A DNA stretch of 64,000 nucleotides, from the NCBI GenBank assembly GCA_018335035.1, contig JAGXKT010000003.1:78623-142622 (forward strand), read 5' to 3'. The notes beneath the pieces were generated by a model that had not been told where the DNA came from, ran no database searches, and saw only the letters and a program-made list of their open reading frames with translations. The translations under genes were made by a program, and so were the position numbers. Below are positions 2,509 to 22,524 of this stretch, in pieces. Source of the stretch: Phycisphaerae bacterium (GTDB taxonomy: Bacteria > Planctomycetota > Phycisphaerae > SM23-33). Within the stretch, counting starts at the first letter, position 1. Each line of letters starts with the position of its first letter.

Positions 2509-3429
2509 CTACCGCAGCGCCTCGGCAACCGCCGCCCAAACCGTGCGCATGTCCTCGGCCGGACCGTCGGGAACGAACTCGACCACCGATTGCCGACGGA
2601 CCTGGGCGTCGGTAACGGCGCGATCGTAGCGGACCCGCCCGGCGACGCGCAGCCCCCGTTCGGCGGCGTCGGCCTCGATCCGCGCGGCGATCTCCGCGTT
2701 CAGGTCCCACTTGTTGACGCACACGAGGGCGGGAATGTTGAAGTGCATCGCCACGTCCGCGACGCGCCCCAGGTCGTGCAGCCCGCTGAGCGTCGGCTCG
2801 GTGACGATCAACACGGCATCGGCACCGGTGATCGAGGCGATAACCGGGCATCCGATGCCCGGCGAGCCGTCGACCAGCAGCAATGTCGCGCCGCGTTCGG
2901 CGGCGACCTCGGCCGCCTGCTTGCGAACCGTGCTGACCAGCTTGCCCGAGTTCTCCTCCGCGACGTGCAGCTTGGCGTGGACCATCGGACCGTGGCGCGT
3001 CTCGGAGACGAACCATTGCCCGTTGACGACGGAGGCGAACTCGATCGCCCCGGCCGGGCAGAACCACGCGCAGACGCCGCACCCCTCACAACCGATCGGG
3101 TCCACACGATAGGTCTTGGCGACGGCGCCGCCGGGCAGACCGTCGAAGCGAATCGCATCGAAGCGGCACAGTTCGGCGCATTTGCCGCAGGCGACGCACT
3201 TTTCCGGGATGATCCGCGCCCGTTTGCCGCCGGAGAAGTCCTCCCGGCGGATGGTGTCCGGGCCCAGCACCAGGTGCAGGTCGGCCGCGTCCACGTCGCA
3301 GTCCGCCAGCACGGCGTTCTCAGCCAGCGCGGCGAACGACGCGACGACGGACGTCTTGCCCGTGCCGCCCTTGCCGCTGATGACGACCAGTTCCTTGGTG
3401 TGATCGGTCATGGTGTGTTGCCCGCTCAT
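2509..3429 (-). CDS. MinD superfamily ATPase with inserted 4Fe-4S ferredoxin domain
   Basis: SGKGGTGKT P-loop, CVACGKCAELC and CEGCGVCAWFC clusters; ATGA overlap with the upstream gene. The longer ORF-track N-terminus is spurious. Confidence 0.92.
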   Translation of the reverse strand: MSGQHTMTDHTKELVVISGKGGTGKTSVVASFAALAENAVLADCDVDAADLHLVLGPDTIRREDFSGGKRARIIPEKCVACGKCAELCRFDAIRFDGLPGGAVAKTYRVDPIGCEGCGVCAWFCPAGAIEFASVVNGQWFVSETRHGPMVHAKLHVAEENSGKLVSTVRKQAAEVAAERGATLLLVDGSPGIGCPVIASITGADAVLIVTEPTLSGLHDLGRVADVAMHFNIPALVCVNKWDLNAEIAARIEADAAERGLRVAGRVRYDRAVTDAQVRRQSVVEFVPDGPAEDMRTVWAAVAEALR

Positions 3430-4280
3430 TCCGCCGCTGTCGCTTCTTGCGTAATCCGCTCCAGGAGCTGCGCGTAGATGTCGCGGTAGTCCGGAATCGC
3501 CTCGCAGGCGATCTCGCCGCGCGAGTAGGCCTCGGCGACGCGGCGGTCGTCGGGCAGCTCGGCGAGCACGTCGATGCCCTCGGCCGCACAGTAGTCCGTC
3601 GTCTCGCCGTCGCCGACGTCGGCGCGATTGATGACCACGGCAAACGGCAGCGCCAGGGCGCGGACCATCTCCACGGCGAGCTTCAGGTCGTTGAGCCCGA
3701 AGGGCGTCGGCTCGGTGACCAGCAGGACGAAGTCGCTGTCGCGGACGGATTCGATCACGGGACACGACGTGCCCGGCGGCGCGTCGATGATCAACACGTC
3801 GACGTCCGGCGCGGCGTCTTTGACCGCGGCGATCACCGGCGGGCTCATCACCTCGCCGACGTTCAACAGTCCCTGGACCCACTGCACGCCGCCGGCGGCG
3901 CCGATCGCCAACTGCCCGGTCGGTCGTTTCGCCTCGCGGATCGCCCCAGCCGGGCAGACGAGCCAGCAGCCGGCGCAGCCGTGGCACAGCTCCGGAAAGA
4001 CCAGCACCTGCTCGTTGACGCAGACGATGGCGCTGTACTGGCAGATCTCGCCGCACTGCCCGCAACCGGTGCATTTGGCCTGATCGACCTCGGGAATGCT
4101 GACCTCGACCGGGCGGGTCTCGGCAACCTCGGGCTTGAGAAACAGCGCCCCGTTCGGCTCCTCGACGTCGCAATCGAGATAGCCGGCGCTACGTGCGGCG
4201 GCCGACACCGTCACGGCCAGATTCGTCGCGACGGTCGTTTTGCCCGTGCCCCCTTTGCCGCTACAGACGGCGATGTTCAT
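3426..4280 (-). CDS. MinD superfamily ATPase with inserted 4Fe-4S ferredoxin domain (paralogue)
   Basis: MNIAVCSGKGGTGKTT, CTGCGQCGEIC, CHGCAGCWLVC. Confidence 0.93.
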   Translation of the reverse strand: MNIAVCSGKGGTGKTTVATNLAVTVSAAARSAGYLDCDVEEPNGALFLKPEVAETRPVEVSIPEVDQAKCTGCGQCGEICQYSAIVCVNEQVLVFPELCHGCAGCWLVCPAGAIREAKRPTGQLAIGAAGGVQWVQGLLNVGEVMSPPVIAAVKDAAPDVDVLIIDAPPGTSCPVIESVRDSDFVLLVTEPTPFGLNDLKLAVEMVRALALPFAVVINRADVGDGETTDYCAAEGIDVLAELPDDRRVAEAYSRGEIACEAIPDYRDIYAQLLERITQEATAAE

Positions 4281-4292
4281 GGTGCGCTTTCC

Positions 4293-4892
4293 TTACGCCT
4301 CGTCGCCGCCGCGGCCCTGCTCCAACTCCGCGATACGCCGGTTGATTTGCTCCATCTGCCGGGCGAGTGCATCGGCCTGCTGCTTCAAGGCGGACACATC
4401 CTCCCCCCCGCCGGCAGCGCTGGCATTCGGCGGCGCCTGCCCCATGCCGCCGGTCGATTGGGCGGCGCCCCGGCCCATGCCCATGCCCCGCCCCATGCCG
4501 CGACCCATGCCCATGCCGCCTCCGCCGCCGCCGACACCGAAGTGGCTGGCGACGTTCGGCGCGGCGGCCTGGCTGAGCTGCCCGGCCTTGTACTGCGCCA
4601 CGGCGTCGCGCACCGCACCGGAGCAGCCGACGATCACGCCGATTCCGGCGGCCGACAGCGTCCGGTGGGCGTTCGGTCCGCAGTTGCCGGTCAGCACGTG
4701 CGTGACGCCCTTGTCCGCCATGAGCTGGGCCGATTGCACCCCCGCGCCGCCCCCGAGGGCGACGTTGGCGTTCTCAATCGCCTCGAAGCTCATGTCCTCG
4801 GTGTTCACAATGAGGAAGTACGGACACCGTCCGAAACGCGGCTCCACCGTCGCGTCCAAGTCCGCTCCCGTGGCCGTGATTGCTATTGTCAT
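4293..4892 (-). CDS. NifX/ORP-family (dinitrogenase iron-molybdenum cofactor biosynthesis-like) protein with Met/Gly-rich tail and coiled-coil C-terminus
   Basis: MTIAITATGADLDATVEPRFGRCPYFLIV..VLTGNCGPNAHRTLSAAGIGVI; tail GMGMGRGMGRGMGMGRG. Confidence 0.88.
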   Translation of the reverse strand: MTIAITATGADLDATVEPRFGRCPYFLIVNTEDMSFEAIENANVALGGGAGVQSAQLMADKGVTHVLTGNCGPNAHRTLSAAGIGVIVGCSGAVRDAVAQYKAGQLSQAAAPNVASHFGVGGGGGGMGMGRGMGRGMGMGRGAAQSTGGMGQAPPNASAAGGGEDVSALKQQADALARQMEQINRRIAELEQGRGGDEA

Positions 4893-5001: not shown

Positions 5002-5394
5002 TCAGTCTTGTTGCGCCTGCGCCTCGAGCTCTTCGATCCGCTTGCGGATGCCGTCGAGCGCATCGGCGAAGTACTCGGCCTGGCCTTTGAGCGCATCGAG
5101 CTGTTGCTCGCGGCTGACCGGCGCGCCATAGGTCATGCCCGCCGCCGGCGGCATGCCACCGAAGGCCGGATAGCCCATCGCAGCGCGGCTCCAGCCGGGC
5201 ACGCCCGTGGCGTAAAACCAGTTGCGGCGTCCCCAGCCGCCGCGTCCCCGGCCACCGCCGAAGCCGCGGCCGAAGCCGCCACGTCCGCCGATAGGGTTGG
5301 CGTAGCCCGGCATCTGGTATCCGGCGCAGAAGCCGGCCGCTCGTCCCGTCATCGGTCCCATTCCGCCTGGTCCTGTTCCGTCTCCACCTGGCAT
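5002..5394 (-). CDS. DUF5320-like Gly-rich protein
   Basis: MPGGDGTGPGGMGPMTGRAAGFCAGY start motif, C-terminal coiled coil; start chosen at MPGGDG. Confidence 0.8.
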   Translation of the reverse strand: MPGGDGTGPGGMGPMTGRAAGFCAGYQMPGYANPIGGRGGFGRGFGGGRGRGGWGRRNWFYATGVPGWSRAAMGYPAFGGMPPAAGMTYGAPVSREQQLDALKGQAEYFADALDGIRKRIEELEAQAQQD

Positions 5395-5463: not shown

Positions 5464-5715
5464 TCAGCTACGTGTCATCCTGGTTCCGCACTTCGGACAG
5501 CTCATTTGATTGCACGGCTGTCCTGCCGGGTGCGCAACCCGGCTTCCACAACTCGGACAGACGCACTGTCCGCCGGGCCCCGCCGCGTACGGACCACCCA
5601 TGCGTCCGCGCCCGGCGCCCTGTCCACGTCGAGCGCCGCGTCCGCGTCCGCGTCCGGCGCCCCGCCCGTCGCCTTGTCCGCCGCCGGGCGGTCCTGTTCC
5701 GTCACCTCGTGGCAT
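5464..5715 (-). CDS. DUF5320-like Gly/Arg-rich protein with C-terminal zinc-ribbon/rubredoxin-type knuckles
   Basis: MPRGDGTGPPGG..CVCPSCGSRV..CNQMSCPKCGTRM; SD ggaggtgat. Confidence 0.8.
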   Translation of the reverse strand: MPRGDGTGPPGGGQGDGRGAGRGRGRGARRGQGAGRGRMGGPYAAGPGGQCVCPSCGSRVAHPAGQPCNQMSCPKCGTRMTRS

Positions 5716-5769
5716 AGCGATCACCTCCTCGCTTGCGTCGGGGCAGGTCGTTATCGGTTTCGGCTGCGA

Positions 5770-6192
5770 TCACCTTCGGCGTCCGCGGCGTATCCGGCGC
5801 GGCGGGCCGCCCGCATGCCGTTGCCGACGGCGACCGCTCATCCGACCGTTGCCGCGCCGACGACAACCGGGCATCAGGAATGCGCCCTGCCCCAGTCGTC
5901 CGTCGATATACGCCGCCAGAACACTCTCCACATCGCCGCACGTCTGGGCGACGACCTCCACGCCCGCGGCCGTGACGGCCCGCTCCAGCGGCCGAGAGAT
6001 CGCCCCGCACACCAGCACATCCGCTCCCGCCTCGACCAAGCGTCTGGCGCGCGCCTGGAGGCCCTCGGTGTCAAACGACACCTCGCGCCGCGTCTGCTCG
6101 ACGCCGCCGTCGACCTCCACGAGCCACACATGCCCGGCCACGTCAAATACCGGGCTGACCCGCCCTTGCCAGTGAGGGATTGCGACCTTCAT
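5770..6192 (-). CDS. NifX/ORP-family protein
   Basis: MKVAIPHWQGRVSPVFDVAGHVWLVEV..GAISRPLERAVTAAGVEVV. Confidence 0.85.
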   Translation of the reverse strand: MKVAIPHWQGRVSPVFDVAGHVWLVEVDGGVEQTRREVSFDTEGLQARARRLVEAGADVLVCGAISRPLERAVTAAGVEVVAQTCGDVESVLAAYIDGRLGQGAFLMPGCRRRGNGRMSGRRRQRHAGGPPRRIRRGRRR

Positions 6193-6207
6193 GCTGCCAG
6201 AAGCTAT

Positions 6208-6223
6208 TTCAAATAACGTGCCA
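6208..6223 (-). promoter_or_regulatory. Candidate sigma54 (-24/-12) promoter for the leftward ORP/MinD operon
   Basis: Minus strand TGGCAC-GTTAT-TTGAA (consensus TGGCAC-N5-TTGCA; the -12 C is A). Confidence 0.55.
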
Positions 6224-6297
6224 GCCGTTGCGTTACTTGAAAGAGCGCCTTTTCAGTCGGTTACGTGGTGTCTTCTGCTGCATCGGCCGCCTTTAGC

Positions 6298-6318
6298 GCG
6301 CAAAACGCTTGATTGCGC
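6298..6318. promoter_or_regulatory. Candidate activator-binding inverted repeat between divergent genes
   Basis: GCGCAA-N9-TTGCGC perfect 6-bp inverted repeat. Confidence 0.4.
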
Positions 6319-6382
6319 CGCGTATTACGTTGTAAGATGCACGATTTGAACGATCCGTCCGGCCAAGCGAGAGGATACGACC

Positions 6383-7744
6383 ATGGCGACATCAACAGGC
6401 GTCCAGCGCGAGAGCACGATACTGAACTCCATCAACGAGGGCGTATTCACCGTGGACGGCGACTGGCGGATCACCGCCTTCAACCGCGCCGCCGAGACGA
6501 TCACCGGCGTCCGCCGCGATCAGGCCATCGGAAGCCCCTGCTGCGACGTGTTCCGCGCGAACATCTGCGAGACCGACTGTGCCCTGCGCCGTACCATGCG
6601 CAGCGGCACCCCTATCGTCAACGCCACCGCGCACATCATCAACCAGCAGGGCGAGCGGATTCCCATCCGGATTGCCACCGCCCTGCTGAAGGACGAAGCC
6701 GGCCAGATCGTCGGCGGCGTCGAGACCTTTCAGGATCTCACGCAGGTCGAGCAGCTGCAGAAGGAGCTTCAGGCACGTTACACCTTCGAGGACATCGTCG
6801 GGCGCAGCCAGGCGATGCTAAACCTGTTCGACATCGTCCCCCAGGTAGCCGATTCCGACAGCACCGTGCTGATCGAAGGGCCCAGCGGAACGGGCAAGGA
6901 GCTGTTCGCCCGCGCGATCCACAACCTGTCGCCGCGTCGGGAGAGCCCATTCGTGGCCGTCAACTGCGCCGCCCTGCCCGACACGCTCCTGGAGAGCGAA
7001 CTGTTCGGTCACAAGGCGGGGGCGTTTACCGACGCCAAACGCGACAAGCCCGGGCGGTTTGCCCTCGCCGAGGGGGGCACGATCTTTCTCGACGAGATCG
7101 GCGACATCTCGCCGGCGATGCAGGTTCGCCTGCTGCGCGTCCTCCAGGAACGCGCGGTCGAGCCGCTCGGAGGCGTCGAACCGGTCGGCGTCAACGCGCG
7201 GGTGATCGCGGCGACGAACAAAGACCTTGCCGAACAGGTTCGCACCGGCGCCTTCCGCGACGATCTGTACTACCGCGTTCGCGTGGTACGCCTGGAGCTT
7301 CCCTCATTGAAGCAGCGCCGCGAGGACATCCCCCTGCTGGTCGACCACCTCGTCGCCAAGTTCAACGAGCTTCAGGGCAAGCAGATCGCCGGCGTCTCGC
7401 AGGAAGTCATGGCCCGGCTGATGGACCACGATTACCCTGGAAACGTCCGTGAGCTGGAGAACATCATCGAACAGGCGTTCGTGCTCTGCCGCGGCGGGAT
7501 GATCGAGCTGAACCACCTGCCGCCGGAACTCCGCCCGACCTCCGCCGGGCAGAGCGCCTCGGCGGCGCCGATGACGCTCGACAGCGTCGAGAAGCTCTTC
7601 ATCTGCGAGGCGATGCAACGCCGCAACGGCAACCGCAAGCTGGCGGCCGCCGATCTGGGCATCCACGTCAGTACGCTCTACCGCAAGATTCACGCCCTGG
7701 GCATTGACACGCCGCCGTGCGACGGGCGCGGGCAACGGCGGTAA
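6383..7744 (+). CDS. Sigma54-dependent transcriptional regulator (PAS-AAA+-Fis HTH)
   Basis: GPSGTGKE Walker A, GAFTDA loop, GGTIFLDEIGD Walker B, C-terminal Fis-type HTH; Cys-rich PAS. Confidence 0.95.
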   Translation: MATSTGVQRESTILNSINEGVFTVDGDWRITAFNRAAETITGVRRDQAIGSPCCDVFRANICETDCALRRTMRSGTPIVNATAHIINQQGERIPIRIATALLKDEAGQIVGGVETFQDLTQVEQLQKELQARYTFEDIVGRSQAMLNLFDIVPQVADSDSTVLIEGPSGTGKELFARAIHNLSPRRESPFVAVNCAALPDTLLESELFGHKAGAFTDAKRDKPGRFALAEGGTIFLDEIGDISPAMQVRLLRVLQERAVEPLGGVEPVGVNARVIAATNKDLAEQVRTGAFRDDLYYRVRVVRLELPSLKQRREDIPLLVDHLVAKFNELQGKQIAGVSQEVMARLMDHDYPGNVRELENIIEQAFVLCRGGMIELNHLPPELRPTSAGQSASAAPMTLDSVEKLFICEAMQRRNGNRKLAAADLGIHVSTLYRKIHALGIDTPPCDGRGQRR

Positions 7745-7866
7745 CGTTGCACATCGCATGCTTGCGCGGACACGGCGGTGGCGTCGGCGGGACGGCTGCG
7801 CCCTGGACGCTCCATATCCTCATGTTCATCAGTATGTTACGAATCCGACGCCCTGGGGACGCGGCG

Positions 7867-7882
7867 TGGCACATGTGTTGCA
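7867..7882 (+). promoter_or_regulatory. Sigma54 (-24/-12) promoter of the rightward ORP operon
   Basis: TGGCAC-ATGTG-TTGCA matches consensus; followed by ggaagg SD and ATG at 7908. Confidence 0.85.
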
Positions 7883-7907
7883 AAGGTGTGCGATGGAAGG
7901 AATCACC

Positions 7908-8270
7908 ATGAAGATAGCCGTCACATCGCAAGGTCGAACGCTGGATGATCCCGTCGACCCGCGTTTCGGGCGGGCCAAGTGTTTTCTGGTCGTCGATACG
8001 GAGACGGGCGCGTTCTCCGTCGCCGACAACACGCAGAATTTCAACGCCCCGCAGGGCGCCGGCGTGCAGGCGGGCAAGACCATCTCGGACCTCGGCGTCT
8101 CAGCCCTTATCAGCGGGCACGTCGGGCCCAAGGCCTACGCAACGCTTCAGGCCGGCGGCGTGGCGATCTACGTCGGCGGCAAAGGCACCGTCGGCGAGGC
8201 GGTCGAGCAGTTCAAGGCCGGCGCGTTGGCGCGGGCCGACTCGCCGGACGTGGAGGGCCACTGGGTCTAA
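7908..8270 (+). CDS. NifX/ORP-family protein
   Basis: MKIAVTSQGRTLDDPVDPRFGRAKCFLVVDTETG..VSALISGHVGPKAYATLQAGGVAIYV. Confidence 0.9.
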   Translation: MKIAVTSQGRTLDDPVDPRFGRAKCFLVVDTETGAFSVADNTQNFNAPQGAGVQAGKTISDLGVSALISGHVGPKAYATLQAGGVAIYVGGKGTVGEAVEQFKAGALARADSPDVEGHWV

Positions 8271-8275
8271 CCGGC

Positions 8276-9169
8276 ATGCAGACGGCGTTGGAATGTATCC
8301 CCTGTTTCGCGCGGCAGGCGCTGGACGCCGCCCGCTTCGTCTCCGACGACGCGGCGCTGCACGAGCGCGTCCTGCGCGACGTGCTGCTAATGGCGGCGGA
8401 GATGGACCTGAGCCAATCGCCGCCGGTCATCGGCCAGAAGATCCACCGCGAACTACGGCGGCTGACCGGCGCGTCCGATCCCTACGCGAGGGTTAAGCGG
8501 CGTTTCAACCGCCTGGCGCTGGAGATGCTCCCGACCTGTCGTCGGCGCATCCAAGATGCAGACGATCCGCTGACGATGGCGTTGCGCCTGGCGATTGCCG
8601 GAAACGTCATCGACCTGGGCGTGGGCGTCGCCCTTGACGAAGAAACGGCCCGACAGGCGATGGAGCGCGTGCTGGACGAGCCGTTCCACGGCGTGGTGGA
8701 CGATTTCCGTGCGGCCGTCGAAGCCGCCGACGACATCCTTTACCTGGCCGACAACGCCGGCGAAATCGTCTTCGACCGGCTTTTGATCGAGCAATTGCCC
8801 GCCGAGCGGGTCACGGCGGTTGTACGCGGCGGGCCGGTGTTGAACGACGCGACGCGCGACGACGCCGAGGCGGCCGGGTTGCACGAACTTGTGGACGTCA
8901 TCGACAACGGCTCCGACGCCCCGGGCACGCTACTGAGCGATTGCAGCGAGCCGTTCCAACGCCGTTTCGCCGAGGCCGACTTGATCCTCGCCAAGGGGCA
9001 GGGCAACTTCGAGACATTGAGCGACGAGCCGGCGAACGTGTACTTCTTATTCAAAGCCAAATGCCCCGTGATCGCCGCGCGTGTCGGCCTGCCGGTCGGC
9101 ACGCACGTGGCGTTGCGGTCGCCGGCATACCACGTGCCGGCGGGAGGTGACCATCATGCCGGGATTTGA
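8276..9169 (+). CDS. DUF89/ARMT1-like metal-dependent phosphatase family protein
   Basis: MQTALECIPCFARQALDAAR..ILYLADNAGEIVFDRLLIEQL..LILAKGQGNFETLS. Confidence 0.9.
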   Translation: MQTALECIPCFARQALDAARFVSDDAALHERVLRDVLLMAAEMDLSQSPPVIGQKIHRELRRLTGASDPYARVKRRFNRLALEMLPTCRRRIQDADDPLTMALRLAIAGNVIDLGVGVALDEETARQAMERVLDEPFHGVVDDFRAAVEAADDILYLADNAGEIVFDRLLIEQLPAERVTAVVRGGPVLNDATRDDAEAAGLHELVDVIDNGSDAPGTLLSDCSEPFQRRFAEADLILAKGQGNFETLSDEPANVYFLFKAKCPVIAARVGLPVGTHVALRSPAYHVPAGGDHHAGI

Positions 9170-9377
9170 CGGAACCGGACCGCGGGGGAGCGGACCGATG
9201 AGCGGCGGCGGGCGGGGGTTTTGCGTCCAGCCGATCCCGCCGACCGGCGGGGCGCCCAACCCCGCCGCCGAACTGGCCGCCCTGCGTCAGCAGGCCAAGC
9301 AACTGGCCGCCGCCCTGAGCGAGATTCGCCGCCGAATCGACGCGCTGGACGCTCACGGGCACGCGGAGGCGCCATGA
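9156..9377 (+). CDS. DUF5320-like small protein
   Basis: MPGFDGTGPRGSGPMSGGGRGFC plus coiled-coil LRQQAKQLAAALSEIRRRIDALDA; SD gggaggtga. Confidence 0.8.
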   Translation: MPGFDGTGPRGSGPMSGGGRGFCVQPIPPTGGAPNPAAELAALRQQAKQLAAALSEIRRRIDALDAHGHAEAP

Positions 9378-10585
9378 CGGACTCGCCGACACAGTCGCCG
9401 CCGGATGACGCCCGCCGACAGGACCAGGCACGCCAGTTGAAGGCGCGGATGGCCCGCATTGGGCGTAAGCTGCTCGTGCTGTCCGGCAAGGGCGGCGTGG
9501 GCAAGAGCACCATCGCGACGCACCTGGCGGTCGCTCTGGGCGAGGCGGGCAAAACGGTCGGGCTGCTGGACGTGGACCTCCACGGGCCGAGCGTCGTCAA
9601 GATTCTCGGGCTGGAAGGACGGCGCATGGCGCCGTCCCCCAGCGGCGGCATCGCGCCCGTGCCGGCCGGAACGAATCTGTCCGTCGTCTCGATCGCGATG
9701 ATGCTCGAAGGCGGCGCCGACGCCGTCATCTGGCGCGGGCCGATGAAGTACAACGTCATCCGCCAGTTTCTCGCCGACGTGGCCTGGGGCGCGTTGGATT
9801 ACCTCGTGATCGATTCGCCCCCGGGCACGGGCGACGAGCCGCTGGCCGTGGCGCAGATGGTCGGCGACGGGGCGCAGGCGGTCGTGGTAACCACGCCGCA
9901 GGACCTCGCCGTTTCCGACGTGCGGCGGAGCGTGTCGTTCTGTCGCACGCTGAACCTGCCCGTCGCGGGGATCGTCGAGAACATGAGCCAAATGGTCTGC
10001 CCGCACTGCGGCGAGCGGATCGATCCATTCAAAACGGGCGGCGGCGAGGCGCTGGCCGGCGAGGTGGGCGTCCCCTTCCTCGGGCGCGTGCCGCTGGACC
10101 CGCAGATCGTCCTCACCGGCGACAGCGGAACGACGGCACACGCCGGCGGCGCCGGCCCGGCCGCGGCAGCACTGACCGCCGTCGTCCAATCCATCCAGGC
10201 CGCCCAGCGCACCGCGCCGCCGGCACAACCTCAGGAGAGCCACACGATGACAATCGCCATTCCCCTCGCCAACGGTCAACTCGCGATGCACTTCGGGCAC
10301 TGCGAGCAGTTTGCCCTCATTGACGCTGACGCCGATGCCAAGTCCGTCACGAACACGCGATACGTCACCCCGCCGCCACACGAACCCGGCGTGCTGCCCC
10401 GCTGGCTGGGCGAGCAGGGCGCCGAGGTCATCATCACAGGCGGCATGGGCCGACGCGCCCAGGCGCTGTTCGCCCAAAGCGGCATCCGGGTCGTCGTCGG
10501 CGCGACGCCGGCGCCGCCCGAGGACGTCGCGGCCGCCTATCTCGCCGGAACGCTGGAAACGGGCGACAATGTCTGCGACCACTGA
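9374..10585 (+). CDS. Mrp/NBP35-type ATPase fused to C-terminal NifX/ORP domain (MrpORP-like)
   Basis: VLSGKGGVGKST, CPHCGE, then MTIAIPLANGQLAMHFGHCEQFALID. Confidence 0.92.
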   Translation: MTDSPTQSPPDDARRQDQARQLKARMARIGRKLLVLSGKGGVGKSTIATHLAVALGEAGKTVGLLDVDLHGPSVVKILGLEGRRMAPSPSGGIAPVPAGTNLSVVSIAMMLEGGADAVIWRGPMKYNVIRQFLADVAWGALDYLVIDSPPGTGDEPLAVAQMVGDGAQAVVVTTPQDLAVSDVRRSVSFCRTLNLPVAGIVENMSQMVCPHCGERIDPFKTGGGEALAGEVGVPFLGRVPLDPQIVLTGDSGTTAHAGGAGPAAAALTAVVQSIQAAQRTAPPAQPQESHTMTIAIPLANGQLAMHFGHCEQFALIDADADAKSVTNTRYVTPPPHEPGVLPRWLGEQGAEVIITGGMGRRAQALFAQSGIRVVVGATPAPPEDVAAAYLAGTLETGDNVCDH

Positions 10586-11012
10586 CACCCGACCGGACGC
10601 GGGGCTGCTCGAACGCATGCGCGCGGCGCATCACGCCGGCTGTGTCGTCTGCGGGCGGCTGCGCGACGGCGGGCTGGGCCTGCGCGTCCGGCTGCGCGAC
10701 GACGGCAGCGTCGCCGGCACCGTCCGGCCGAGCGATGATCTGGCCGGGTATGCCGGTCTGCTGCACGGCGGCGTGATTTCGGCGCTGGTCGACTGCGCGA
10801 TGACGAACTGCCTGTTCGCCCACGGCGTCGCGGCCGTCACGGCCGAGTTGAACGTGAGGTTCCGGCATCCGGTCGCATCGGATACGCTATTGACCGTGGC
10901 CGCCAGCGTCACGCGCCGCTCAGCCCCGCTGTACGTCGCCCGCGCGGAGCTGAGCCAGGGCGGACAGGTCAAGGCCACCGCCTGCGGGAAGTTCATGGAA
11001 ATGTCGCGATGA
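10569..11012 (+). CDS. PaaI-type hotdog-fold thioesterase
   Basis: CVVCGRLRDGGLGLRV..YAGLLHGGVISALVDCAMTNCLF; overlaps both neighbours. Confidence 0.82.
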   Translation: MSATTDTRPDAGLLERMRAAHHAGCVVCGRLRDGGLGLRVRLRDDGSVAGTVRPSDDLAGYAGLLHGGVISALVDCAMTNCLFAHGVAAVTAELNVRFRHPVASDTLLTVAASVTRRSAPLYVARAELSQGGQVKATACGKFMEMSR

Positions 11013-11872
11013 GCACGAGCCACCACGAGACCATCGACCAATTCCGCATCGGGCAGAAGCCCAACTACATCGCACAGGACGACGAGGAGGTCATCTTCCG
11101 GACGGCGTTCGCGGCGAAGATCCCGCTGATTCTCAAGGGCCCGACCGGCTGCGGCAAGACGCGGTTCATCGAGCACATGGCCCACGAGCTGTCGCTGCCG
11201 CTGGTGACGGTCTCCTGCCACGAAGACCTCACGGCGGCCGACCTGGTCGGGCGATATCTGTTCAAGCGGGACGAGATGGTCTGGCAGGACGGCCCGCTGA
11301 CGCTGGCGGTCCGCCACGGGGGCATCTGCTACCTGGACGAGATCGTCGAGGCCCGCAAAGACACGACCGTCATCATCCATTCGCTGACGGACGACCGGCG
11401 GATGCTGTACGTGGACAAGACCGGCGAGGTGGTCCGCGCCCACCCGAATTTCATGATGGTCCTGAGCTACAACCCGGGCTACCAGAGCATCGTCAAGGAC
11501 CTCAAGCACTCCACCAAGCAGCGGTTCGCCAGCGTCAGCTTCACGCATCCGCCGGCGGACGTCGAGACGCGGATCATCGCCACCGAGACCGGGCTGAACG
11601 ACGACGACAGCCGAAAGCTCGCCGAGATGGGCACCAAGGTGCGGCAGTTGACCGGCTACGGACTGGACGAGGGCGTCTCGACACGGCTGCTGGTGTACGT
11701 CGGGCGCCTGGTCACCGGCGGGCTGGACCCCGTCGAGGCCTGCCGCGCCGCCGTGACCCACACGCTGACCGAAGAGCGCGAGGTCGCCCGGTCCATCGAG
11801 GACATCGTGCAACTGTACTTCGGCGAAATCACGGCCGAAGAGAATGGCGAACCAAGCTCGAAGTCAGAATGA
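11009..11872 (+). CDS. CbbQ/NirQ/NorQ-type MoxR AAA+ ATPase
   Basis: LKGPTGCGKTRFIEHMAHEL..DLVGRYLFKRDEMVWQDGPLTLAVRHGGICYLDEIVEARKD. Confidence 0.92.
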   Translation: MSTSHHETIDQFRIGQKPNYIAQDDEEVIFRTAFAAKIPLILKGPTGCGKTRFIEHMAHELSLPLVTVSCHEDLTAADLVGRYLFKRDEMVWQDGPLTLAVRHGGICYLDEIVEARKDTTVIIHSLTDDRRMLYVDKTGEVVRAHPNFMMVLSYNPGYQSIVKDLKHSTKQRFASVSFTHPPADVETRIIATETGLNDDDSRKLAEMGTKVRQLTGYGLDEGVSTRLLVYVGRLVTGGLDPVEACRAAVTHTLTEEREVARSIEDIVQLYFGEITAEENGEPSSKSE

Positions 11873-11882
11873 CACACCGCAC

Positions 11883-11927
11883 GCGCCGGCATTCGTCATT
11901 CGCCCTTCGCCATTCGTCATTAGCAGA
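11883..11927. repeat. Heptamer-period low-complexity array in the CbbQ-CbbO spacer
   Basis: attcgtc attcgcc cttcgcc attcgtc att. Confidence 0.6.
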
Positions 11928-11929
11928 CC

Positions 11930-14233
11930 ATGCCTTCCTCCAAACGCCAACGCTATCACGGCTTTGAGCTGACCAGCGTCTGCTGGGGCTATCGCGACCT
12001 GTTCGAGCGGACGATCGAGGGGCTGTTCGCGCAGGGCGCGATCGGCCCGGAGCGGCGCGAGGTCACCGAGACGGTCTTCGAGACGCTCAAGCAGGCCGAC
12101 CAGGGCTGCTACGATCACGTACTCAAGGAGTTCCTCGCCGCGCTGAATCCGCGAACGCGCTGGCTGCTCGACCTGCCGGCCGTCTTCACCGACGTGGTCG
12201 CCCTCGGCTGGCAGCTTGCCCGCAAGCGACTGCACTACGGCATCCGCTACTTCGAGACGCTCGGCGCCGGCGGCTTCGGCGATTCGCCCGAGCAGGTCCG
12301 GCTGCTGCTGCGTACCCTGCGCCGACTGGCGGCAATCGACGACGATCTGGCGCTGGCCTTCCTGAGCGGCCACCGCACGCTGATCGACCGACTCAAGCCG
12401 GGCGAGTTGGAAATGTACATCCGCGCCGGCGTCGACATCTACCGGCGCAACAAGCCCGCGGGACGGGCCTTCATGGCCACCGCGCTCAAGAGCTCCGAGA
12501 TCTACATCGCCGCCATCACCCGCGAATGCCGCCTCGAGGCCGTCCAGGCCTCACTGGGCGGGCTCGTCGGCGCGCTGACCGGGCGGCGCATGGAGGTTAC
12601 AGATCTCGGCCGGCTCGATTCCGACGACCTGATCGAGCGCGGCTCGACCGTCGTCTGCATCGGCGGCTGGCTCCACCTGCCGCACCGCGTTCGCGATTTC
12701 GACACGGCGCGGGCCAATCGCGCGTGGTACACGCTGGCTGCGGTCGCCGCCGCCGGCGCGATCGCGACCGACAGCTTCCCGCGGATCCACGGGCACCCGC
12801 GCTACCGGACCTGCCGCAACGTCGCCGGCAGCGAGTTGTGGCGGGTCAACCTGTTCCAGATCACCGAATACGTCCGCGTGTTGGCGTGGATACGCCGCCG
12901 CTGGCCCGGCGCCCGGCGGCTGATCGAGTGGGCGCTGCGCCACGAGGGGCAACACGCCCGCGCGTCCGGGGAGGCCGACGGGCTCTTTCTCGACGCGGCC
13001 GGCGACGTCGAGACCGCCGCGGCGCGGCTCGTGGCGGACGCGGCCGACGCGTCTGCAAACCTGTTCGACACGGCCGGGCGGCTGGGCGAGCCGTGGGCGC
13101 AGCGCCTCTGCGAGCTCGTGCCTGCCCTGGCATCGGTGCCACTGGCGCCGCCGACGTTCCTGCCGGACTTTCTGTTTCCCGCGTCGTTGTCGGCACCGCC
13201 GCGGGATTCGCTGGTCGCCGACCTCAAGCAAGCCGCCCGTGCCGGGACGCGCCGGAATGAGCGCGGGCCGGCCGAGGACGCCGCTTCCCGCGCCGTCGCC
13301 GACGAGGATACGGCGGACGCCGAAGCCGACGAACCGGCGCCCGTTGAGGCCGCGCATCTTTACGACGAGTGGAGCCAGGACGACAACGACTACTACCGGA
13401 ACTACTGTCGCGTGTACGAACGGCGCGTCGAGCCGCCGGTCCGCCCGTCGGTACCGGACAACGTGATGTCCGAGGCACGCAAGATACGGCGTGTCTTCGA
13501 GCGGCTCAAGCCGGACCTGGCCCGCAAAGAAAAGCGCCTCCGCGACGGTGACGTGATCAACCCGGACCTCCTGCTGGACTACCTGATTCGGCGGCGCCGC
13601 GAGCCGGCGCCACGGGTCAACTTCTACGAGAAGCCGCGGATCGCGCGTCGCGACCTGGCCGTCGTCATCCTGCTCGACGTCAGCGGCTCGACCGGGGAGA
13701 TGCTCGCCGAGAAAAGGCCAATCATCGACATCGAAAAGCACGCGGCGTTGATTCTCGGACAGGGTCTGGCATCGCTGGGCGACCGCTTTGCCGTCTGTGG
13801 CTTCAGCTCCAGCGGGCGCGACAACTGCCTGTACCACGTGTTCAAGGACTTCGGCGACGCATGGGACCGCGCCGCGGCCGGATGCGTGATGGCGGCCGCG
13901 CCGGGAAACTCCACGCGGATCGGTCCGGCGTTGCGGCACGCCGGCTGGAAGCTGGAACAGCTATCGTCCCGCCGACGGCTGATCGTGTTGATCACGGACG
14001 GGCGCCCCATGGACAGCGGCTACGACCCCAACACGCGTTACGCCCAGCACGACGTGCGCATGGCCTGTGAGGAGAACGCGCGCAGGTGCGTCCAGACGCT
14101 GGGCGTATCCACCGAGGTCAACAGCGTCGCGGACATGGAGATCATGTTCCCCCAGCGGCGGTTCGTGATCTTGCCGGACCTGAGCGCCCTGCCGCGCGTG
14201 CTGCCGCGCCTGTACGTCAAGCTCACCGCGTGA
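11930..14233 (+). CDS. CbbO/NorD-type VWA domain protein
   Basis: C-terminal DLAVVILLDVSGSTGEM MIDAS motif, DGRPMDSGYDPNTRYAQHDVRMACEEN; follows the CbbQ-type gene. Confidence 0.9.
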   Translation: MPSSKRQRYHGFELTSVCWGYRDLFERTIEGLFAQGAIGPERREVTETVFETLKQADQGCYDHVLKEFLAALNPRTRWLLDLPAVFTDVVALGWQLARKRLHYGIRYFETLGAGGFGDSPEQVRLLLRTLRRLAAIDDDLALAFLSGHRTLIDRLKPGELEMYIRAGVDIYRRNKPAGRAFMATALKSSEIYIAAITRECRLEAVQASLGGLVGALTGRRMEVTDLGRLDSDDLIERGSTVVCIGGWLHLPHRVRDFDTARANRAWYTLAAVAAAGAIATDSFPRIHGHPRYRTCRNVAGSELWRVNLFQITEYVRVLAWIRRRWPGARRLIEWALRHEGQHARASGEADGLFLDAAGDVETAAARLVADAADASANLFDTAGRLGEPWAQRLCELVPALASVPLAPPTFLPDFLFPASLSAPPRDSLVADLKQAARAGTRRNERGPAEDAASRAVADEDTADAEADEPAPVEAAHLYDEWSQDDNDYYRNYCRVYERRVEPPVRPSVPDNVMSEARKIRRVFERLKPDLARKEKRLRDGDVINPDLLLDYLIRRRREPAPRVNFYEKPRIARRDLAVVILLDVSGSTGEMLAEKRPIIDIEKHAALILGQGLASLGDRFAVCGFSSSGRDNCLYHVFKDFGDAWDRAAAGCVMAAAPGNSTRIGPALRHAGWKLEQLSSRRRLIVLITDGRPMDSGYDPNTRYAQHDVRMACEENARRCVQTLGVSTEVNSVADMEIMFPQRRFVILPDLSALPRVLPRLYVKLTA

Positions 14234-14249
14234 GGTGCCGCGGGACGCT

Positions 14250-14819
14250 TCAGCGGACGGCCGCTTCGATTCGTGCGATCAGGTCGGCCGGGTCCAGCGG
14301 CTTGGACAGACACGCCATCGCGCCGCAGGCGACAATTTCCGCGGCGACCTGCTCGTTGCAATCGGCCGTCATCGCCAACACGGTCGTCTGGCCGTTGTCC
14401 GACGCCCGTGCCTTGATGCGGCGACACACCTCGAAGCCGTCCAGGCCGGGCAGGCGGATGTCGAGCAGCACCACACCAGGGCGCTCGGCACCGAAGATCT
14501 CCCCGGCCGAGAAGCCGTCATACGCCTGGAGTACTTCGTATTCCGGATGGGCGTCCCGGATCTCGGCCGTCAGCCACGAAACAACGTCGGTCTCGTCGTC
14601 GACGATCAGGATCTTCGGGGCGGCGTTCTTCTGCAGCTCCGGCGGAATGGGTAGCCCCTGACGCTTGAGAAAGGCGACCACGTCTTTGGCCGCCACGCGC
14701 CGATGCCCGCCCGGCGTTCGCCCGGCCTTGAGTTGACCCTTGTCAATCCACTTGGCGACCGAGCCGACCGAAACGTGCAGCAACTTCGCAACCGCTGTTG
14801 TCGAAAGAAGCTTGCTCAT
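14250..14819 (-). CDS. Excisionase/MerR-type HTH fused to receiver domain
   Basis: MSKLLSTTAVAKLLHVSVGSVAKWIDKGQLKAGRTPGGHRRV then KILIVDDETD..VVLLDIRLPGLDGF. Confidence 0.88.
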   Translation of the reverse strand: MSKLLSTTAVAKLLHVSVGSVAKWIDKGQLKAGRTPGGHRRVAAKDVVAFLKRQGLPIPPELQKNAAPKILIVDDETDVVSWLTAEIRDAHPEYEVLQAYDGFSAGEIFGAERPGVVLLDIRLPGLDGFEVCRRIKARASDNGQTTVLAMTADCNEQVAAEIVACGAMACLSKPLDPADLIARIEAAVR

Positions 14820-14961: not shown

Positions 14962-15837
14962 TCATCCAAGACTGACGGCGTTGCGCCCCGATTCCTTGGC
15001 TCCATACAGGGCCTTGTCGGCCTGTGCGAGTAGATCCTCCGGCGTCTCGACACCGATCGAGTCCGCGACGCCGAAGCTGATCGTGACACCCACGGACTGA
15101 TTTTCGGCCGAGACGCCGACGGACTCAACGTTCTTTCTGCATCGTTCCGCCAGCGCCCAGGCGTGCTCGGCCGTGGTGTCCGGCACGAGCACGGCGAACT
15201 CCTCGCCGCCGTAGCGCGCGGGCAGATCCATCTCGCGGCATTCGCCCGCGATGGCTCGCGCCACGGCCTGGAGCACCTTGTCGCCCACGGGATGTCCATA
15301 CTGGTCGTTGACGTTCTTGAAGTGATCGATATCGCCCAGCGCGAAGGCCAACACGCTTCCCTGGCGTTGCGCGCGGGACCATTCGGTACGCAGATGCCGT
15401 TCCAGCCCGCGTCGGTTGGCGACGCCCGTCAGCGGATCGATCTGCGCGTACTCGGCCAGCATGTCCTGCAAGCGCTTGGTCCGCAGCGCGGCACGTACCC
15501 GCGCCCGCAACTCGAACGCGTCAAACGGCTTGGTGATGTAATCCACCGCGCCGTAGTCCAGCCCCTTGACCTTGTCGGCCGTGTCCGTCGAACCGGACAG
15601 GAAGATCACCGGAATGCGTCCGAGGTCCTGGTCGCCTTGAAGCTGATTGCAGATGACGAACCCCGACCGGCCCGGCATGTCGATATCCAGCAACACCAGG
15701 TCCGGCGTCTCGCGACGGACCGCTTCGACGGCCGTGGTCGCATCGCTGTGCGAGACGATGTCCAACTCCTCCGGCTTTAATCGCACGCGGGCGATCGCCA
15801 GAGCGTCGGGATCGTCATCGATGATCAGAACCTTCAC
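14962..15837 (-). CDS. Response regulator with GGDEF diguanylate cyclase domain
   Basis: VKVLIIDDDPD receiver; RYGGEEFAVLVPD active site with upstream REMD I-site; GTG start overlapping upstream TGA. Confidence 0.92.
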   Translation of the reverse strand: MKVLIIDDDPDALAIARVRLKPEELDIVSHSDATTAVEAVRRETPDLVLLDIDMPGRSGFVICNQLQGDQDLGRIPVIFLSGSTDTADKVKGLDYGAVDYITKPFDAFELRARVRAALRTKRLQDMLAEYAQIDPLTGVANRRGLERHLRTEWSRAQRQGSVLAFALGDIDHFKNVNDQYGHPVGDKVLQAVARAIAGECREMDLPARYGGEEFAVLVPDTTAEHAWALAERCRKNVESVGVSAENQSVGVTISFGVADSIGVETPEDLLAQADKALYGAKESGRNAVSLG

Positions 15838-18800
15838 GTCTCGGCTCCTGTCGACGCGTCCCGCGCCTGCCCTCGAACCGCGGCGCGCGCCAAACCGTCC
15901 AGCGCCGCCAGCCACCGTTGCGACGCCTGACGGTCTTCATTCTCGGCGGCCGATTCCAGCTTCGCCGCCGTTTGGCTCACTGACGGGTAACCGTAGCCCC
16001 CACCGGCGCCCTTGACCTGGTGTGCCGCGCGGCGGAGGTCGTCCCAACTGCCCTGCTCGAAGGCGGCGCGCATCGCGTCAATGCGCTCGCCGAGCCGGTC
16101 GACGAAATCCGCCACGATATCGGCCATGTCCGGCTCGTCGGCAAACTCGGAAATCAGCACGTCCGGCGTGGAGGAATCCGTCTCGGCCTGCCCGGCCGAA
16201 GCGTCGCCGTCGTCCGTGCCGTCGCCCGACGCCTCGGGGGTCTCGGCCTCCGCGACCGCGGCGTATTGTGCCACGGCCGAAAGCAGCTTCGCCCGGTCGA
16301 TCGGCTTGGTCAGATGCGCCTCGCAGCCGGCGGCGATGCTATGGTCGCTGTCACCGTTTAGCGCGTGGGCCGTCAGCGCCAGCACAGGCCCCGCGTAGCC
16401 ACGCTGCCGCAACAGCCGAGTCGCCTCGGAGCCGTCCATGACGGGCATCTGCATGTCCATCAGGACCACGTCGAACGCGCCCTCAGCGGCGCGCTCCAGT
16501 GCTTTTCCGCCATTCTCAACGATCTCCACCGTCGCGCCCGCGCCGGTCAGGAATCGCTCGATCAGCCGCTGATTTGACTTGCCGTCCTCCGCCAGCAGCA
16601 CGCGAACGTCGTCCAGGCGGGGCAATGCACTGCTTTGGCGTGTGGTATCCCCGACCACGGAGGTCTCCTTATGTGTCTCCAGCATGCGAACGTTCTCCCT
16701 CACAACGGCCGGTATCGTGACCGTAAACACACTGCCCTTCCCAATGGTGCTATCGGCAGTAACCCCCCCTCCCATTAGCTCAACCATGCGCCGAGAAACG
16801 GGCAAACCGAGCCCGGACCCGCCATAGCGACGTGTCGTGGACGCATCGGCCTGCTCGAACGGTTCGAAGAGCTTCTCCAGCCGCTCCGGGCGAATGCCGA
16901 TGCCGTCGTCTTCCACGTCGAAGCGGACCGCCGCCTGCCCGTCACGCCATTGCGGCTCGTAGGAAACCGCTACCCGTACGTGCCCGTTTTCGGTGAATTT
17001 GATCGCATTGCTCAGCAAGTTCATCAGCACCTGGCGCAGACGCACCCCGTCCGTCTGAATCGTCTCGGGAACCGGCGTGGCGTACGTCACGTCGAGCGTG
17101 TCGCCCTGCTCGGCCGCACGAGACGACAGCGTGCGCGTCAGCTGCGTGAGCATCTCGCTGACGGCTACCGCCCGGATATCCAATGTCATGCGACCCGATT
17201 CGATCTTGGACAGGTCCAGAATGTCGTTGATCAGCTCCAGCAGGAACTGTCCGTTCGAGCGGATCATCGACACGCACTCAGCCCAGTCCGTCTGCCCGGC
17301 ATCGAGGTCCCCCAGCAGCTCGGCGTACCCGAGGATCGCCGTCATCGGCGTGCGGATTTCGTGGCTCATGTTGGCCAGGAAGGCCGTCTTGGCGCGCGTG
17401 GCGGCCTCGGCCCGGTCCTTTGCCCGCTCGAGCTTCTTTTCCGCCCGCTTCCGGGACGTTATATCCCGCACCGTCGCCTGCAGGAACGCTCGGCCTTGGA
17501 GTTCCACGCGCGTCAGCAGAACGCTCGCGGGGAATAGATCACCGCCGACGCGCCGGTGGGTCCACTCGAAGAAGTGGCTGCCGTCGCGCATCGCGCGTGC
17601 GATCATCTCCCTGGCTTTGACGTTCGAGTGGTGGCCGTCCGGCTGATAGTCGCAGGACAGCTCCGCCAGTCCCCTGCGGCAGAGGTCCGCTTCGTCCTCG
17701 CACCGGAACATCCCGATGCACGCAGGATTGCCCGACGTGAAATTCCAGGACGGCGGTTCCAATGTCATGATCGCGTCCCGTGAACTGGTGAACAGCACGC
17801 GATGCCACTGCTCGCTGATACGGAGCCCCTCCTCGGCCTGCCTTTTCTCCGTGATATCCATGATGATCGCCGCCAGGCCGGTCACGCGTCCGCCCCGTTG
17901 GATGCGCCCCGAGTGGATCAGCGCCGGGAACGTCGAGCCGTCCTTCCGGAGCCCCGTGTACTCGTTCAGTCCGGGGTCCTCGCCGGCCAGTGCGCGGCCG
18001 GCGTTGGCGCGGGCGCGACCGCGTTCGTCGGGCACAATCATGTCAAAGCAGTTCAGCCCGCGCCTGACATCCTCCTGGCTGTAGCCCATCACGTGGTAGG
18101 CGTTGCGATTGGCGAAGATGATGTTGCCCTCGATGTCCGTTTCCGTGACGATGCCGGGCAGCAGATCCGCCAGTGTCCGGAAGCGCTGCTCGCTGTCGCG
18201 CAGGGCGGCTTCCATGCGCTTCCGCTCGGTGATGTCGATGGCCGCTTCCACCGCGCCGATCGCCTCATCTTGCTTGTCGCGGACGGGAGCGCCCGTGACG
18301 AACCAGGTCCGTCCGTCCGGCGTCTGCATATCCCGGGAGCACCGCCGGCCTGTTTCCATCGCTTCGAGAACCGGGCAGTTCGGGCACGGCTCGTCACGCC
18401 CGCCCCAGATCTCGTAGCAGTGGTGCCCGACGAGCTCCTCAGGCGCTTTGCCCGCCAACTCGCAGCCCCGCGGATTGACCCACTGGACCGTCATGGTTCG
18501 GTCGCTGAAGTTGACCCTCTCGGCGATGTGCTCCATGACCAGCCGACGCTGCTGCTCGGCGGCGTGAAGGCGCGCGTCGCACGTGCGCGCGTCCGTCACG
18601 GCCTGAACGATCTCGACGACGCCGGTGACGCGGCCGTGCTCATCGCACGCGGGCCACGTCTGAACAAGGCACACCGTGCCGTCCGGTGCGGTCATTTCGC
18701 CGCGCCCGGCGGCGCCCGTCCGCAGCGTCTCGCTCGCCGGGTCGGCATCGCCGACGCCCTCGCATCCGGCGAGGAGTTCGCGGCGCGCCCGCCCGATGGG

Positions 18801-18956
18801 CTCACGGACGCCGCGCCGCTCGGCCGCGGCGCGGGCGGCGCGATTCAGCCACTGCACGCGCAGAGACCGATCATAGAGGCCCACCCATTCCGGAAGACCC
18901 TCCAGTATCGCCTCCAGATCCTCTCGGCGCAGCGGATTCTCTCCATCACGTCGCAT
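15834..18956 (-). CDS. Multi-PAS hybrid histidine kinase with receiver and Hpt domains
   Basis: FLANMSHEIRTPM H-box, HATPase motifs, receiver LLAEDGKSNQRL, C-terminal AAHQVKGAGGGYG Hpt. Confidence 0.95.
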   Translation of the reverse strand: MRRDGENPLRREDLEAILEGLPEWVGLYDRSLRVQWLNRAARAAAERRGVREPIGRARRELLAGCEGVGDADPASETLRTGAAGRGEMTAPDGTVCLVQTWPACDEHGRVTGVVEIVQAVTDARTCDARLHAAEQQRRLVMEHIAERVNFSDRTMTVQWVNPRGCELAGKAPEELVGHHCYEIWGGRDEPCPNCPVLEAMETGRRCSRDMQTPDGRTWFVTGAPVRDKQDEAIGAVEAAIDITERKRMEAALRDSEQRFRTLADLLPGIVTETDIEGNIIFANRNAYHVMGYSQEDVRRGLNCFDMIVPDERGRARANAGRALAGEDPGLNEYTGLRKDGSTFPALIHSGRIQRGGRVTGLAAIIMDITEKRQAEEGLRISEQWHRVLFTSSRDAIMTLEPPSWNFTSGNPACIGMFRCEDEADLCRRGLAELSCDYQPDGHHSNVKAREMIARAMRDGSHFFEWTHRRVGGDLFPASVLLTRVELQGRAFLQATVRDITSRKRAEKKLERAKDRAEAATRAKTAFLANMSHEIRTPMTAILGYAELLGDLDAGQTDWAECVSMIRSNGQFLLELINDILDLSKIESGRMTLDIRAVAVSEMLTQLTRTLSSRAAEQGDTLDVTYATPVPETIQTDGVRLRQVLMNLLSNAIKFTENGHVRVAVSYEPQWRDGQAAVRFDVEDDGIGIRPERLEKLFEPFEQADASTTRRYGGSGLGLPVSRRMVELMGGGVTADSTIGKGSVFTVTIPAVVRENVRMLETHKETSVVGDTTRQSSALPRLDDVRVLLAEDGKSNQRLIERFLTGAGATVEIVENGGKALERAAEGAFDVVLMDMQMPVMDGSEATRLLRQRGYAGPVLALTAHALNGDSDHSIAAGCEAHLTKPIDRAKLLSAVAQYAAVAEAETPEASGDGTDDGDASAGQAETDSSTPDVLISEFADEPDMADIVADFVDRLGERIDAMRAAFEQGSWDDLRRAAHQVKGAGGGYGYPSVSQTAAKLESAAENEDRQASQRWLAALDGLARAAVRGQARDASTGAET

Positions 18957-19025
18957 CGTGTATGCAATCCTCCTGGCGAAGCGGTCCGGTCCGGCGACGC
19001 ACGACGCGGCGGCCCGTCCGCCGGC

Positions 19026-19445
19026 TCAACCGGTGGCCGTCACTTGCCCTCGCAGCTTCTCGAGTTCCTCGGTGAGCCCGAGGATTCGCGTGGCCGAACG
19101 CAGGTGGATCTTCAGGTCCATCGGATCGAACGGTTTGAGCAGGTAGTCGTCCGCGCCGCAGACGAGCACCTGCAGCATGTCTTCTTTCCGGCGGCTGCCG
19201 GTAATCATCAGCACGTAGGCGTCGCGCGTGTGCGCCTGACGGCGAATGAACCGCGCAACCTCGAACCCGTCGGCGCCGGGCATACACCAGTCCACCAGGA
19301 TCAGCCGGGGGGCGTCCTTGCGGCGCAGCGCCGCCATCGCCTCATCGCCATCACACACCACCTGCGGGTCAAACCCCCAACTCGACAGGAGCATCTCGAG
19401 CCACTGGCGATACGTCGCATCGTCGTCAGCGATCAGAACACGCAT
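19026..19445 (-). CDS. Single-domain response regulator
   Basis: MRVLIADDDATYRQ..LILVDWCMPGADGFEV..LLKPFDP. Confidence 0.9.
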   Translation of the reverse strand: MRVLIADDDATYRQWLEMLLSSWGFDPQVVCDGDEAMAALRRKDAPRLILVDWCMPGADGFEVARFIRRQAHTRDAYVLMITGSRRKEDMLQVLVCGADDYLLKPFDPMDLKIHLRSATRILGLTEELEKLRGQVTATG

Positions 19446-22400: not shown

Positions 22401-22524
22401 ACAAGCCGGCCGCCACCGTTGCCAGAAGCAGCGGACGCAAGCCGTGCCACCGCCCCGACGCATGAAGCAGCCGCTTGGCGAACGCCGTAACGCGTCGCCT
22501 CTGCCTGACCCAATCGATACGCAT
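19426..22524 (-). CDS. Membrane hybrid histidine kinase with two receivers and Hpt
   Basis: FLARMSHEIRTPMNG, degenerate first receiver VLVIDATEPDG, second receiver ILLAEDDEINRE, Hpt ARLAHKLKGSLRLL. Confidence 0.95.
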   Translation of the reverse strand: MRIDWVRQRRRVTAFAKRLLHASGRWHGLRPLLLATVAAGLFAWVLHIQHRRFESWIVDGIRSQRGQSVRRLARTTETAFGETVSGLEVLARSPGLVDRRADAAHPAEVFRQAQRGVVRRVMVSVRDGPERRWSLLAPQDDGADVPDERLAALSAQCRAISDRPAFVSDWDTGVIWVLVPVPGRAESDAVLACSVRLRSLVDHVMPMDATPGSNFWWLLSDGGQLLAGSGAAPPLKASSFSTRADVETLLADCAEKGRRGTAEVVLGDDPEQKSLVAYAPAVVAGERLVVATGGTISGISIPLVSYERVAYTMIIALSLMYFATGFICYRSERAQHKLAEQQRHSAEAASRAKSAFLARMSHEIRTPMNGILGMTELALHSDLNDRNRKCLRLVQRSGNALLRIINDVLDLSRIEAGKLTLTCEPFDLRDCLDSTVGLLAPQAEDKGLDLELKVYPDTPTVVVGDAGRLRQVVTNLVGNALRFTDKGWVSVVARPGARHDDRIEIVIEVADTGPGISQEDQQRIFDAFEQAGTPSSTQRGGTGLGLAISAQIVQLMGGHIDIDSCPGGGTTFRFTVTLALPDRQQREMVSGAASAGNGGDAAHAELPGRTRVLVIDATEPDGTHTCDAVDHALWSVASGSSAHAATRACSAEQGRRYALEADQTDRPFDVIIVDADLGGADGTALVAELREALTHRPAFVLTASVGLRGDAARCHEVGVDAYLTKPVSACVLGEAVSDALTAVRAGRPGKLATRHTVRRRGGALRILLAEDDEINREHATMLLGGWGHDVTCVTTGRQAVETWAQGGVDLVLMDMEMPEMDGLEAARRIRAAEPDGRHVPILAMTANVMGGAGASCREAGMDGYVTKPVSSERLIEALAAVGVRGVSDTSDADEPSPETSPAPEHSKRPAVDADVWNRDAALGSVANNVQSLQRLVEAFVASWPESRDALRRAKAEGDVETIARLAHKLKGSLRLLAAPAASRAAEALERAARDAQAECTGDLVDELITAVDRFGTVAAEDCERQAHACSDR

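Follow-up and report, generated by a model that had tools for sequence, protein, structure and literature searches.

The site at 7867-7882 is almost certainly, judging from its sequence and context, the sigma54 promoter (the on-switch) of a planctomycete operon for an iron-sulfur carrier of the anaerobe type. This predicted promoter, the activator gene beside it and a probable activator operator recur in dozens of related genera. We consider it very likely that the promoter, the adjacent activator and the operator at 7746-7760 control the orp8-MrpORP operon, and that the divergent operon is controlled via a second operator. The features are listed in Table 1. The window is the whole 64,000-nucleotide stretch of DNA that was analysed.

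Table 1. Features of the orp cluster in the window
Feature	Position	Strand	Remarks
Orp3-like MinD-type ATPase with ferredoxin domain	2509-3411	-	
Orp4-like MinD/Mrp-type ATPase with ferredoxin domain	3426-4280	-	
FeMo-co-domain + DUF5320 protein	4293-4892	-	Orp5-like position
DUF5320 protein	5002-5394	-	
Small glycine-rich protein	5464-5724	-	No Pfam match; also in orp clusters of relatives
NifX/FeMo-co-domain protein	5770-6192	-	First gene of divergent operon
Divergent sigma54-like promoter	6208-6223	-	TGGCAC-GTTAT-TTGAA; A, not C, at -12; predicted 5-nt leader to ATG 6192
Second putative operator	6329-6343		GTTGTAAGATGCACG; centre 127 bp upstream of divergent -12 base; about 46 bp upstream of activator start
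Cognate enhancer-binding protein (predicted), DVU2106-like	6383-7744	+	PAS - AAA+ sigma54 activator (GAFTDA) - Fis HTH
Putative activator operator	7746-7760		GTTGCACATCGCATG; TTGCA-N3-TGCAA family; centre 128 bp upstream of C(-12)
Sigma54 -24/-12 promoter (predicted) of orp8-MrpORP operon	7867-7882	+	TGGCACATGTGTTGCA (TGGCAC-ATGTG-TTGCA)
Predicted transcription start (+1)	7893	+	A; counted from C(-12) at 7881
Shine-Dalgarno-like GGAAGGA	7895-7901	+	Read from the sequence; ahead of ATG 7908
Orp8-like FeMo-co/NifX-domain protein	7908-8270	+	First operon gene
ARMT1-like/DUF89 damage-control phosphatase	8276-9169	+	
DUF5320 small protein	9156-9377	+	
MrpORP (P-loop NTPase + FeMo-co domain)	9374-10585	+	Fourth operon gene
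Hotdog-fold thioesterase-like protein	10569-11012	+	Overlaps MrpORP
MoxR/GvpN-like AAA+ ATPase	11009-11872	+	Overlaps thioesterase-like gene
Large co-directional protein with VWA-like DVSGS motif	11930-14233	+	Read from the sequence; possible operon end

The promoter site and the operon behind it

The site agrees with the sigma54 consensus TGGCAC-N5-TTGCW at 11 of 11 defined positions. GG at -25/-24 and GC at -13/-12 are present and lie 10 bp apart. An earlier note on this DNA had described the site, and its sequence, coordinates and consensus spacing proved exact. It had also placed a sigma54-activator gene just upstream, and a Shine-Dalgarno sequence (ggaagg) and an ATG at 7908 downstream. 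These were all found: the activator gene, which encodes PAS, sigma54-interaction, AAA lid and Fis-HTH domains, ends 122 nt before the site (stop codon 7742-7744), and 25 nt separate the site from the ATG. The predicted transcription start, expected in the note at about 7892, is shifted to 7893 by our recount. The site had been said to drive the MrpORP operon. MrpORP is indeed in the operon; however, it is the fourth gene, and the first encodes an Orp8-type protein. The MrpORP gene scores 504.8 bits against NF041136, the NCBIfam MrpORP equivalog (cut-off, 450 bits). The genes downstream of the promoter mostly overlap or lie a few bases apart.

The MoxR-like AAA+/VWA-like pair (11009-14233) is attached to the orp operon, and such a pair was also observed beside orp genes in two other loci. 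Just past the operon, large hybrid sensor kinases and response regulators are encoded (15834-22524, minus strand).

If a housekeeping promoter, or read-through out of the activator gene, accounted for most transcription of the operon, sigma54 would be only a minor input. Read-through would be eased by the lack of any terminator-like site found between the activator gene and the operon. However, a scan for one promoter type found no sigma70-like site in 5900-14500, and we judge this explanation improbable.

The activator and its putative operator

The activator is a 453 aa protein, in which the sigma54 loop of the AAA+ domain reads GAFTDA. Its PAS domain contains three cysteines, C53-x8-C62-x3-C66 (codons 53-66, 6539-6580). 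Among 397 genomes of the class, a search identified close relatives of this activator in 66, which belong to 58 genera. With loci from other phyla added, 93 distinct activator genes were collected, and in 61 cases a recognisable Orp8 or NifX gene lies next downstream. These loci were picked by protein similarity, not by promoter. C53, C62 and C66 are invariant in 58 aligned homologues, and the triad is present in at least 91 of the 93 activators, Desulfovibrio included. In the genome under study, which holds seven strong sigma54-activator domains, neither GAFTDA nor the triad was found in the five other readable activators. An AlphaFold model of the activator is confident for PAS, AAA+ and HTH (mean pLDDT, 87.5); in it, the triad falls at one short helix of the PAS domain and immediately behind it. 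Structure searches with the activator matched only known sigma54-activator AAA+ domains; PAS-only matches in the PDB were weak. A natural guess is that the triad may be a Fe-S or metal/redox sensor controlling the Fe-S carrier operon. We found no report in the literature of the signal for the DVU2106-type activator family.

Operators were sought by expectation-maximisation with a palindromic model, which was run separately on the regions upstream and downstream of the activator genes. The 62 downstream regions yielded aTTGCA-aat-TGCAAt in 87% of the sequences (log-likelihood ratio 304, versus 25 for shuffled sequences). TTGCA-N3-TGCAA was found again in the 90 upstream regions, in 37% of the sequences (149 versus 29). 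The copy at 7746-7760 is the second-best match to the palindrome in the 64 kb and that at 6329-6343 the seventh-best; by chance, 0.002 and 0.019 matches so good are expected in the two regions. Both copies are degenerate, with two mismatches each. A strict search for TTGCA-N3-TGCAA at one mismatch misses both of them and shows no enrichment in this genome. Therefore, we claim no wider regulon.

Across relatives, the downstream distances from operator to promoter cluster near 111, 121, 131, 142 and 154 bp. They are phased at an 11-bp period (R=0.57), with P values of about 0.0002 for uniform distances and 0.002 for distinct distances, shared ancestry being ignored in both. On the divergent side, operator pairs often lie at 110 and 142 bp. 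The phasing fits an activator that has to be turned towards the polymerase when the DNA between them loops. The palindrome is probably the activator operator, roughly helically phased with the promoter, and we infer that it is bound by the neighbouring activator.

An IHF-like site with one mismatch was found at 7827-7839, and the genome has two HU/IHF-family genes. Across relatives, such sites occur in 19 of 59 regions against 12 expected. This enrichment is weak, and an IHF site between operator and promoter is not convincingly supported.

A second alternative is that the sigma54 promoter is real and another enhancer-binding protein of the genome activates it. The seven activator domains and the weakness of the operator copies in this genome speak for such a protein. 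However, in nearly all of the relatives inspected the activator gene adjoins the promoter, operator copies lie on either side of the activator gene, and DVU2106 of D. vulgaris regulates its own neighbours (PMC3897727). Activation by another protein is thus very unlikely.

Conservation of the promoter and frequency of the motif

In the window, 2 matches to the sigma54 consensus with at most one mismatch were found, compared with 1.95 in shuffled sequences. In the genome, 48 such matches were found versus 100 for the reversed control pattern; thus, the motif is rarer than its control. Because the motif occurs at or below control frequency in window and genome, it proves nothing by itself. The genome-wide scan, which the earlier note had proposed as a check and which we made as a pattern search against the reversed pattern, detected no enrichment. 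All four exact sites in the genome precede genes, at 25-110 nt from the gene start. Of the three other exact sites, one is 28 nt upstream of clpB, one 110 nt upstream of dnaK, and one 60 nt upstream of a receiver-like gene that is followed by groES.

Within the taxonomic order, a site matching at least 9 of the 11 positions lies ahead of dnaK in 29 of 29 genomes and ahead of clpB in 26 of 29. Therefore, the sigma54 consensus appears to be well used in these bacteria. This distribution suggests that core chaperones may be under sigma54 control in these planctomycetes. Sigma54 control of chaperone genes of Planctomycetota has been inferred computationally before, and clpB was not named there (PMC12316311).

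The site at 7867-7882 is convincing because of its context, namely the conservation of the site in homologous gaps between the activator gene and orp8 or nifX. The 61 gaps are related and their counts are not independent: a site with at least 9 of 11 positions was found in 59 of them (7.5% of dinucleotide shuffles), one with at least 10 in 43 (0.8% of dinucleotide shuffles), and a perfect site in 18 (0.08% of shuffled homologous intergenic regions). When the sequences of the gaps were reversed, one site reached at least 9 positions and none reached 10. G-25, G-24, T-14 and G-13 are invariant in the 61 gaps, and C-12 is kept in 59. If the site matched a short consensus by chance and did not act as a promoter, this would agree with the frequencies in window and genome. 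Such a chance match is hardly credible, however, since the site is conserved at its specific position in dozens of genera, with invariant GG and TG, and since all four perfect sites lie ahead of genes.

The genome, a 2.74 Mb draft that is 97% complete, contains one rpoN gene (PF04552, E 6e-58), the translation of which includes the RpoN box ARRTVAKYR. Its nearest named relatives among public contigs are Phycisphaerae/Planctomycetota MAGs. In D. vulgaris, the orp operons were found by experiment to depend on sigma54 and DVU2106 (PMC3897727; PMC4641369). Together with the conserved position and sequence across many genera, the single rpoN and this precedent support the earlier note's reading of the site as a sigma54 promoter. 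The Desulfovibrio precedent, the operator and the divergent promoter had been missed in that note.

The predicted divergent nifX promoter lacks C at -12

Two divergent orp operons flank the single-component activator in the window. In other lineages (at least six loci), the cluster is unidirectional, in the order activator, nifX, orp8, orp4, orp3 and MrpORP, with a single sigma54 site, which follows the activator gene. Thus, two arrangements occur, of which the divergent layout is one.

In 25 divergent clusters, a sigma54-like site lies 12-15 nt from the nifX ATG. GG at -25/-24 and G-13 are present in all 25, and C-12 in 9; the other 16 have A (10) or T (6). In contrast, the orp8 promoters of loci with divergent clusters have C-12 in 17 of 17 (Fisher P 1.4e-5 versus the divergent side). 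The C at -12 is conserved in 96% of sigma54 promoters (PMC4551910). Given this expectation, the probability of 9 or fewer C in 25 is 6e-17 when ancestry is ignored. At position -12, the activator tree shows at least six switches between C and another base; therefore, the difference is not one inherited change. Published work has tied C-12 to keeping basal sigma54 transcription off. The predicted divergent leader is 2-5 nt, and the MKVAIP-type start is conserved. This arrangement, with its predicted near-leaderless nifX mRNA (6193-6223, minus strand), is conserved in more than 20 relatives.

Tentatively, one activator may serve an unequal pair of promoters. The orp8-MrpORP promoter, with C-12 and a normal leader, would be tight. 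The nifX-orp4-orp3 promoter, without C-12, would have been selected to produce, at a basal level and independently of the activator, an mRNA that is near-leaderless (2-5 nt), that is, it would be an evolutionarily kept leaky sigma54 promoter. We regard this reading as possible but rather doubtful. The leaky, near-leaderless divergent promoter is a concrete prediction, not a result, and a weaker yet activator-dependent divergent promoter would fit the sequence equally well.

Proposed mechanism

From the elements, their positions and their conservation, we infer the following course of binding, activation, autoregulation and signalling. An operon comprising orp8, DUF89, DUF5320, MrpORP, thioesterase, AAA+ and VWA genes would be transcribed from 7867-7882. 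RpoN-RNA polymerase would form a closed complex on the -24/-12 element. The PAS/AAA+/Fis activator with its GAFTDA loop would bind the operator about 128 bp upstream, loop over and open the promoter through ATP hydrolysis. The second operator, ahead of the activator gene, would serve the divergent nifX-orp5-orp4-orp3 operon from the promoter at 6208-6223 and probably also autoregulation, as has been reported for DVU2106. The activator probably responds to redox, metal or Fe-S status, which it would perceive via the invariant PAS cysteine triad.

Comparison with known systems

With these results, sigma54/DVU2106-type control of the orp Fe-S-carrier system, known from Desulfovibrio, is extended to Planctomycetota and to several further phyla. 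Additions to the known biology are the operator, the -12 asymmetry and the PAS cysteine triad. For the activator family, the operator can be put to the test, and the three invariant PAS cysteines are a candidate motif for sensing. The asymmetry between the paired promoters concerns the base considered responsible for keeping sigma54 transcription silent.

The site at 7867-7882 agrees with canonical sigma54 promoters (TGGCAC-N5-TTGCW) in its 11 positions, its spacing, the purine at the predicted +1 and the nearby activator gene, with no departure. In contrast, the divergent promoter departs from them at the C of -12. According to the part of PMC8657755 that cites it, the HrpS-hrpL promoter of Erwinia amylovora is likewise a sigma54 promoter with a palindrome at about -130 built of TTGCA and TGCAA halves; however, the half-sites there are in the opposite order (TGCAA-N4-TTGCA) and the regulon is unrelated.

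The closest parallel is the orp cluster of D. vulgaris Hildenborough (DVU2103-DVU2109), which consists of two divergent operons that need sigma54, DVU2106 and IHF (PMC3897727; PMC6345978). Its activator sites lie at -131 and -88 (PMC3897727), and the sigma54 loop of DVU2106 is listed as GAFTDA (PMC4641369). In the window as in D. vulgaris, a single-component activator with GAFTDA lies between two divergent operons that have sigma54 promoters, predicted here (PMC3897727, PMC6345978, PMC4641369). Both clusters also have activator sites (putative here) ahead of each operon and close to the start of the activator gene itself, and genes for MrpORP, Orp3/4-type ATPases and FeMo-co-domain proteins. 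However, the operator and the recognition helix of the activator differ: the TTGCA-N3-TGCAA palindrome is absent from the three Desulfovibrio orthologue loci examined, and therefore the operator is not transferable from the known system. Moreover, the window differs from the D. vulgaris cluster in its extra DUF89, DUF5320, thioesterase and AAA+/VWA genes and in a divergent promoter that is non-consensus at -12.
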